DNA of 64,000 nucleotides, taken from the NCBI GenBank assembly GCA_028714875.1, contig JAQTLN010000007.1, positions 1 to 64,000 on the forward strand, in the 5' to 3' direction. Source of the DNA: Gallionellaceae bacterium. GTDB lineage: Bacteria > Pseudomonadota > Gammaproteobacteria > Burkholderiales > Thiobacillaceae. The position numbers were made by a program, and so were the translations under genes. The notes below the pieces were generated by a model. It was not told where the DNA came from. It saw nothing but the letters and a program-made list of their open reading frames with translations, and searched no databases. This document shows, piece after piece, positions 21,389 to 23,038 of this stretch (its first letter is position 1; each line of letters starts with the position of its first letter).

Positions 21389-23038
21389 ATGAGCATCCCT
21401 GAGCCAACCCCCCAGCCGATGCCGTTGGCCAATCCCGGCGTCATCGTCTCGGTGCGCGGCAGTGTCGTGGATGTTCGCTTCGATGGCTATTTGCCGCCGA
21501 TCTACACAGTGCTGCGCACGGGCGCGGAACAAGAGATCGTCATCGAGGTGCTGGCGCAACTGGATGCGCGCCATGTGCGCGGGATTGCGCTAACGCCCAC
21601 GCAGGGCCTCGCGCGCGGCATGGCGGTGGTGGATACGGGCGGGCCGTTGCTGACGCCGGTGGGCAAGGGAATTCTCTCGCGCATGTTCGATGTCTTCGGC
21701 AACACCATCGACCGCGAAGCGGCGTTATCCGAGGTGCAATGGCGTTCCGTGCATCGGGCGCCGCCGCCGCTGGCGCGGCGTTCCACCAAGTCGGAGATAT
21801 TCGAGACCGGGATCAAGATCATCGATGTGCTGATGCCGCTGGAGCGCGGCGGCAAGGCGGGCTTGTTCGGCGGCGCGGGCGTGGGCAAGACGGTGCTGCT
21901 CACCGAGATGATCCACAACATGGTCGGGCAACACGAAGGCGTGAGCATTTTTTGCGGCATCGGCGAGCGCTGCCGCGAAGGCGAAGAGCTTTACCGCGAC
22001 ATGAAAGCCGCGGGCGTGCTGGCGAACATGGTGATGATGTTCGGCCAGATGAACGAACCGCCTGGCGCGCGTTTCCGCGTCGGCCACGCGGCGCTGACCA
22101 TGGCCGAATACTTCCGCGATGACGAGCATCGCGATGTGTTGCTGCTGGTCGATAACATTTTTCGTTTCATCCAGGCCGGCATGGAGGTTTCCGGCCTGAT
22201 GGGGCAGATGCCGTCGCGCCTGGGTTATCAGCCGACCATGGGCACCGAGTTGGCGCAACTGGAAGAGCGCATCGCCAATACCGATACCGGCGCCATCACC
22301 TCGATCCAGGCGGTCTATGTGCCGGCCGACGATTTCACCGATCCGGCGGCGGTGCATACCTTTTCGCATCTCTCCGCTTCCATCGTGCTATCGCGCAAGC
22401 GGGCGAGCGAAGGCCTCTATCCGGCCATCGACCCGTTGCAGTCCAGTTCCAAGATGGCCACGCCGGGCATCGTCGGCGAACGGCATTACACCCTGGCGCG
22501 GGAAATCCGCCGCACCTTGGCGCAATACACGGACCTCAAGGACATCATCGCCATGCTCGGCCTGGAACAGCTTTCGCCGGCGGACCGCGACGTCGTCGCC
22601 CGCGCCCGCCGTCTGGAGCGTTTCCTCACTCAGCCGTTTTTCACCACTGAGCAGTTCACCGGCATGCAAGGCAAGCTGGTCAGCCTGGCAGACGCGCTGG
22701 ACGGCTGCGAGCGCATTCTGCGCGACGAATTCAAGGACGTTCCTGAGAGCGCGCTGTACATGATCGGAACGGTGGACGAGGTGAAGTCGAAGCCCAAGGC
22801 CCTTATTGCGTTGGCGGGAGATACGGCTGGAGCGGAGGTTCCCCCCTTTGGGAAAGGGGGGGCAGGGGGGATTTCTGAGACGGACGCCCAGTCTGACGTC
22901 GCTAAATCCCTGATAAAGCCCCTACCCTTCGGTACCTCACTCCCCCTTTGGAAAAGGGGGAAGCCACCTCCCCAGGCGCTTTCCGTCGCATCACCCGCTG
23001 ACGCGAAAGGAGCTGAAGCCAAGGGGGCGACGCGATGA
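21389..23038 (+). CDS. atpD: N-type ATPase beta subunit with an in-frame repeat insertion near the C-terminus
   Basis: 549 residues; N-ATPase AtpD is usually about 470-480. The catalytic P-loop GGAGVGKT is at residues 161-168. Other beta-subunit hallmarks follow: [27 protein letters not shown], and ALIPS-like sequence replaced by [12 protein letters not shown]. The sequence is normal up to about residue 480, then residues ~485-524 (DNA 22841-22960) are encoded by a family A repeat ([11 protein letters not shown].. LPLWKRGK), and a short tail follows. The extension is at the end, so catalysis should be unaffected. The stop overlaps atpC (ATGA). Confidence 0.93.
22841..22960. repeat. Repeat family A (chimeric) inside the atpD 3' end, in frame
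   Basis: CCCCCCTTTGGGAAAGGGGGGG, then AGGGGGGATTTCTGAGACGG, a spacer with GACGTCGCTAAATCCC, a core shared with mrpD (22910-22936), and CCCCCTTTGGAAAAGGGGG. No stop codon occurs in the atpD frame. Confidence 0.88.

Follow-up and report, generated by a model that had tools for sequence, protein, structure and literature searches.

A dispersed mobile palindrome very probably accounts for the extended C-terminus of an N-type ATPase beta subunit

The gene atpD for the beta subunit of an N-type (alternate) F1F0 ATPase in a Gallionellaceae bacterium carries, close to its stop codon, a long palindromic DNA element that is open in the reading frame of the gene. We consider it very probable that the C-terminal tail of AtpD is one copy of a dispersed, non-autonomous mobile palindrome (MITE) that also occurs in close relatives, and that this copy is a tolerated passenger. 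The direct observations behind this reading are the repeat family, its terminal repeats, the duplications at other copies, the element lengths, the open frame and the insert-free orthologs of two other genes. The window, i.e. the whole stretch of DNA that was analyzed, is 64,000 nt long.

The 549-aa product of atpD (21389-23038, plus strand, from the ORF list) matched the NCBIfam profile TIGR03305 over residues 17-464 with 894 bits, above the cut-off of 752, which makes it an N-type ATPase beta subunit, as had been proposed in a preliminary description of this DNA. Alignments with solved beta chains mostly stopped at residues 466-475, with one chain reaching residue 494. At 80 N-type beta loci, taken from named records, the effective length had a median of 487 (5th-95th percentile 469-520; range 459-573, where the minimum comes from a truncated contig), and it exceeded 549 at two of them. 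The product had been described as about 70 residues longer than usual; that it is longer stands, by 62 aa relative to the N-type median and by 75 aa relative to its own inferred empty site, although longer proteins do occur in the family. The tails beyond residue ~470 varied among the 80 loci, so that the C-terminal site appears to be naturally tolerant. The extensions of relatives consisted of other low-complexity sequence of their own, and the same extension encoded by unrelated DNA, which the preliminary description had named as evidence against its reading, was not among them. Residues A, E, G, K, P, Q, R and S, which are disorder-promoting, make up 69% of the added tail and 50% of the core, a composition consistent with, albeit short of proof for, a flexible extension. 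The dN/dS of the atpD core was 0.08-0.12, in pairwise estimates that also average over the time before the insertion.

Two further beta-like genes (at C15 and C37), both ~50% identical to the atpD product, are present in the genome. A search of 22 genomes of the same genus, not all of them complete (58-100%), gave no N-type beta gene, the best matches being ~51% identical or worse. The N-type ATPase is therefore an accessory complex rather than the essential one that it had been taken for, as in Burkholderia pseudomallei, for which an N-type operon is reported alongside the regular F-type one (PMC5376962).

The element spans 217 nt (22798-23014, plus strand) and folds end to end (-104.7 kcal/mol, z -3.4, with none of 200 shuffles equally stable), for which the earlier term nested palindrome was apt. 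With nhmmer it was matched at 22795-23014 with 203 bits, the highest score in a scan whose model was built from 43 aligned copies and also contained the atpD copy. DNA similarity to other copies in the genome begins at ~22793-22797, and the profile match stops at 23014. The terminal inverted repeats begin with GGCNCTTTTCNCGTTANC; the left one (22798-22824, plus strand) is degenerate, with five mismatches to the terminal repeat pattern, and the right one (AGCTCCTTTCGCGTCAGCGGGTGATGC; 22988-23014, minus strand) has three and ends exactly at 23014. Between them lie, on the plus strand, a first inner palindrome core read from the sequence (CCCCCCTTT...AAAGGGG, 22841-22862), a 24-nt block that the alignment of 43 copies revealed in some copies and not in others (22911-22934), and a second core likewise read from the sequence (CCCCCTTT...AAAAGGGGG, 22942-22960). 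The insert is thus about twice as long as the 22841-22960 originally delimited, running from ~22798 to 23014 with an 8-nt duplication up to 23022. The original-looking tail that was thought to follow the repeat is element as well, since both the match and the terminal repeat reach 23014. What is native is the stretch 23023-23038 (plus strand), which from the sequence and the joining of the flanks comprises the end of atpD and its stop codon and overlaps the atpC start (ATGA).

The element is bordered by a putative target duplication of 8-9 nt, the left copy of which (GAAGCCCAA, 22789-22797, plus strand) was read from the sequence and the right copy (GAAGCCAA, 23015-23022, plus strand) followed from joining the flanks. 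This duplication is imperfect: it fits if one base is missing at 23015-23022, and in an ungapped comparison three of eight positions differ. Because of this, and because the left terminal repeat is degenerate, the ends of the element in atpD might move by a few bases. Together, the 217-nt element and the 8-nt right duplication measure 225 nt, exactly 75 codons. When the flanks are joined without the insert, an in-frame protein of 474 aa results that ends in EVKSKPKGATR and a stop codon still overlapping the atpC start; this length is ordinary for the family and resembles that of two relatives (L073 and L074, with effective lengths of 474 and 476). The insertion point would lie ~5 codons ahead of the atpD stop, with about the last five codons being native. 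This empty site was reconstructed from the flanks, since the N-type gene was found in none of the 22 congeners.

At a threshold of E<=0.001, a BLAST search with positions 22780-23045 gave 57 genome matches, some of them pairs that arise from opposite strands of a single palindrome; the best match after self had an E-value of 1.1e-44. At least 95 separate element matches, mostly outside genes recognized here, were obtained in the genome, namely 43 at >=80 bits (the window and 38 loci) and 52 at >=40 bits (40 further own-genome loci). In the alignment of the 43 copies, the element consists of a left arm, two CCCCC(C)TTT...AAAGGGGG cores, the optional 24-nt block and a right arm. The terminal repeat GGCNCTTTTCNCGTTANCNGGTGATGC occurs at 59 genome sites with up to three mismatches, compared with none for the reversed control pattern. 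Both ends were present in 21 own-genome copies, five of which measure 193 nt, the most frequent length. The 8-mers flanking these two-ended copies had 0, 1 and 2 mismatches in three, three and one copies, respectively, and at least three in the other 14, while the chance of two or fewer mismatches between random 8-mers is ~0.4% (our own estimate, assuming equal base frequencies). Once 8 nt are added, 12 of the 21 copies are frame-preserving, and both 193+8 and 217+8 are multiples of three. The left flank was itself a CCCC(C)TTT half-palindrome in nine of 21 copies inspected (by eye: L013, L015, L017, L021, L025, L030, L033, L036 and L041), which indicates that insertion at older palindromes is common. 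The element accordingly has the characteristics of a MITE: terminal inverted repeats, a target-site duplication (7 of 21 copies at 0-2 mismatches) and a short, multicopy form that lacks an internal transposase gene.

Within the window, one other copy is located downstream of atpG (28830-28963, plus strand, 128.5 bits) and another at 29019-29169 (plus strand, 138.8 bits), in the interval that separates atpG from the following large ORF (29300-31357, minus strand). These confirm two of the additional sites reported earlier; the third, at 50688-50854, proved to be a weaker variant. A related palindrome at 3297-3451 (minus strand) also gave a weaker match of 99.5 bits. Tandem arrangements were seen as well. 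Positions 16354-16859 hold four tandem units at a spacing of 113-117 nt with GTAGGTCAGGTTGG repeats, and positions 80-944 of L290 (contig C16 of this genome) hold five element matches, one of them partial, head to tail at ~180-nt spacing. Across the genus, some match was present in 20 of 23 genomes (own included), often as a few short ones, with long matches mainly in G006 and G017. A transposase with matching ends was not found in a search that covered the ISL3 type: there was a single match of this type, without a terminal repeat listed on its contig, and the ORFs enclosed by one pair of terminal repeats ~3.6 kb apart did not read as transposase-like. The element would be transposed by a transposase supplied in trans.

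In-frame copies are present in six recognized genes of this genome, atpD included, with one strand of the element read in some genes and the opposite strand in others. A PBP1C-like protein (PF00912 and PF00905) has an insert in frame at residues 308-374, between its two domains. Internal copies are found in a 6-phosphogluconolactonase (6PGL; in frame, with PF01182 matched in two stretches) and in Mfd (insert at residues 321-386, a partial element match of 85 bits), and C-terminal ones in a thermostable-haemolysin-domain protein (PF12261) and a nitrogenase-type oxidoreductase (PF00148). The first 43 matches overlap 44 candidate ORFs, of which 20 were given to Pfam (7 recognized, 13 not) and atpD to NCBIfam. 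From a second ORF set, 20 were given to Pfam, with 7 recognized and 13 not; one of the seven, an SMC-like protein with an internal copy (SMC_N, PF02463), was recognized with 25.4 bits, below the cut-off of 40. The genic share in this second set is biased, because loci L263-L269 were chosen for their long open frames. Several of the Pfam-recognized ORFs were N-terminal cases and were left out of the count; those in HlyD, NADH dehydrogenase and TPM proteins are not firm, as plausible start codons follow the element. TtcA-like, Fer4_5 and U32 proteins were also kept out of the firm count. The relative G006 carries internal copies in a radical SAM protein, a P-type ATPase and 6PGL.

For two of these genes, orthologs without the in-frame insert were available, a pattern like that of the RPE palindromes of Rickettsia. 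Among 20 6PGL sequences of the genus (the matches of G015 and G020 being left out of the alignment), palindrome-derived inserts of differing length occupy the same loop in four (this genome, G006, G017 and G011), 15 have no insert and that of G018 is ambiguous. In the 6PGL gene of this genome, the element lies inside a palindrome that G017 has without the element, and TTTGAGAA is found on both flanks. For PBP1C, of which the fragment in G006 was left out, 22 sequences were compared: the full element is present in this genome, short palindrome-like peptides are present in G017, G018, G015 and G020, and 17 have no insert visible by eye. Pairwise dN/dS values after the inserts, which include the time before insertion, were 0.15-0.28 for 6PGL and PBP1C and 0.06-0.09 for Mfd. 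Among the matches listed, no additional copy of the 6PGL or Mfd gene with a similar degree of resemblance was present in this genome. The in-frame copies in other genes and the congeners without insert strengthen the earlier view of a dispersed palindrome that is read in frame in the manner of RPE. In 6PGL, repeats have also expanded slightly in a second loop, giving CHTPCHTPCHTPG in G011 (L188) and CHISCHTPG in this genome (L025).

The frame of atpD is open through the repeat, as had been noted before, and the element consensus is likewise open over its full length in this frame, the one open frame of six. Among ten copies checked, the atpD frame was open in five and one reverse frame in eight; judging from the consensus and these ten copies, up to about one third of the combinations of phase and orientation would read through. 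Such openness, the preservation of the frame by element plus duplication in both common lengths, and the in-frame copies in six recognized genes could all be understood if a selfish element had been selected for its translatability in genes, an idea linked with RPE. Outside genes, however, the frame decays neutrally: 35 non-genic copies had 32 stops in the atpD frame, compared with 31.9 expected, and their substitutions were evenly distributed over the codon positions (531:541:532), so that selection for a coding element is not supported there (one of the 43 aligned copies was left out of this test for low coverage). Moreover, 69% of dinucleotide shuffles of the long consensus and 92% of those of the short one had at least one open frame (3000 shuffles each), and most copies are located outside genes recognized here. 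Since the decay is neutral and shuffles are often open, the open frame looks fortuitous, and we regard selected translatability as unlikely. In the seven copies classed as genic, a small sample, 5.6 stops would be expected in the forward element frame and two were counted; the four genic copies read in that frame had none. In the reverse-strand frame, 26 stops were counted in the non-genic copies against 47.4 expected, a deficit that we think is due to one polymorphic stop in the consensus.

Co-option of the palindrome is a further explanation, in which the tail or an mRNA hairpin would be functional, for instance by tuning translation from the atpC start, which the atpD stop overlaps. The stable end-to-end hairpin and the ATGA overlap would suit this, as would a frame that has stayed open although substitutions separate this copy from the consensus at 33 of 219 positions; just 0.75 stops are expected in that frame of the atpD copy, however, which makes its openness weak evidence. 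As, moreover, the scan of 22500-23400 showed no terminator-like site and that of 22600-29300 no Rfam match reaching the gathering score, and the tails of relatives differ in sequence, co-option seems to us very unlikely. Variable tails and effective lengths of up to 573 in the family might alternatively suggest an ordinary, lineage-specific low-complexity tail that resembles a repeat by chance. The similarity of the whole element to many copies elsewhere at the DNA level, the terminal repeat at the element end and the exact frame-preserving length reduce the likelihood of such a coincidence to almost nil. Repeats are also a cause of misassembly, and the joining of a repeat to atpD could have been an artefact of this kind; given that both sides lie on a single contig of 155,025 bases and that joining the flanks preserves the frame and reveals a near-duplication, this is extremely improbable.

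In the preferred reading of a MITE insertion, the element would have inserted ~5 codons before the atpD stop and made a target duplication of 8-9 nt. As the element, with 217 nt or with 193 nt when the 24-nt block is absent, would together with 8 nt give a multiple of three, the frame of the host gene would be kept, and the fortuitously open frame would let part of the insertions read through. Copies in flexible loops, linkers and termini would be tolerated and other genic copies lost, with selection acting as a filter. The insert in atpD would thus be translated and tolerated without having a function, and its 75 added residues are probably a flexible passenger with no dedicated role.

Linker inserts of several kinds were found in Mfd. 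Loop 1 was long (34-74 aa) in six of the 21 sequences in which it was parsed (that of G010 was unparsed, and the Mfd fragment of G005 was left out), and the DNA of all six was strongly self-complementary, with z scores from -5.6 to -11.7 against 60 codon shuffles; in the other 15 it measured 12-21 aa with z scores of -1.4 or above. Loop 2 had z scores of -3.3 or below in 10 of 22 sequences, one of them only 17 aa long. In G008 it was 38 aa long with a z score of only -1.6, and in the remaining 11 it measured 6-23 aa. In different species, these two linkers contain four or five different palindromic repeat families, which we judged from their sequences to be mutually unrelated. The first is the present element or a relative (PPLKKGG...). 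The second, translated as LPSPLGGGAGGEG, gave 92 matches in this genome, 88 in G012 and 62 in G015; the third (HSRESGNPE...LDSRLRGND) 84 in G017 and 8 in this genome; and the fourth (SPDGAQRNPG) 80 in G011 and 87 in G012. The fifth has few long matches, the rest being mostly 21-nt tandem arrays (12 matches in G021 and 38 in G002). Since these counts include both strands of one palindrome, the repeat copies are fewer than the matches. On several contigs of G002 and G021, 21-nt tandem arrays match part of the loop-2 insert in Mfd of G021.

With four to five families in the same two Mfd linkers, and with palindromes inserted into palindromes as in 6PGL, it is conceivable, if somewhat less than an even bet, that linkers of core proteins in this genus have been repeatedly rewritten by translated mobile palindromes, which would then be a main source of new linker sequence, and some of the peptides may have become functional. 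In the open-licence literature searched, no case of several palindrome families reusing the same linkers across a genus was found, nor anything relevant on the translated peptide motifs of the repeats.

A translated mobile palindrome is an already known kind of element, since the mode of action seen here matches that of RPE, RU/ERIC and intragenic REPs. RPE are dispersed palindromes of ~150 bp, nearly half of which are reported within genomic ORFs and which are able to form translational fusions (PMC10969869). The present element shares with them its dispersal and its in-frame insertion in genes, a likeness of action. It differs in its host, in that most copies are outside recognized genes, in that both strands are read, and in its visible terminal repeats and 8-nt duplications. 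The RU/ERIC sequences of enterobacteria are described as small MITE-like repeats, 103-168 bp in length, that keep the reading frame open in the annotated genes in which they lie (PMC2759123); here, too, the hosts are different, and the likeness is that of MITE-like repeats that stay open in genes. We do not claim membership of the present element in the RPE, ERIC/RU or REP families.

Thauera is a betaproteobacterium. The preliminary view that translated palindromes are not a standard feature of betaproteobacteria was too strong, as Thauera and R. conorii are reported to contain intragenic clusters of REPs, which encode 43 to 82 aa (PMC3733652). According to the same report, intragenic GTAG/CGTC REPs are palindromes translated in genes, many of them for DNA synthesis and repair, Thauera included, and recB of X. 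campestris and X. oryzae has different REPs at about the same site (PMC3733652). The present element does not belong to the GTAG/CGTC REPs: these are palindromic units of 20-40 bp tagged with GTAG or CGTC at one end, whereas it measures 193-217 nt, has GGC-ended terminal repeats and makes a duplication. REPs have also been described as targets of insertion sequences, i.e. as palindromes in which mobile DNA lands (PMC1525189); here, it is a MITE that has inserted into CCCCCTTT palindromes or next to them, in one case within a gene.

With the present observations, the apparent conversion of mobile palindromes into protein sequence extends to a bacterial genus other than Rickettsia, and a simple quantitative reason can be offered, namely that the summed length of element and duplication is divisible by three and that the frame is open by composition. 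The observations also provide filled and unfilled natural alleles of core genes in related species, by which the old question of whether selfish DNA truly contributes to protein sequence or is just tolerated noise becomes directly testable.

Two minor features were observed near the other ATPase genes. At 27399-27442, a palindrome beginning TGTAGCGCC, a repeat found elsewhere in the window, lies at the end of atpA and supplies its TAG stop. Between atpA and atpG, a short ORF (27517-27870) presumably resembles a ribosome hibernation factor, which we take to be an odd location within an N-ATPase operon.
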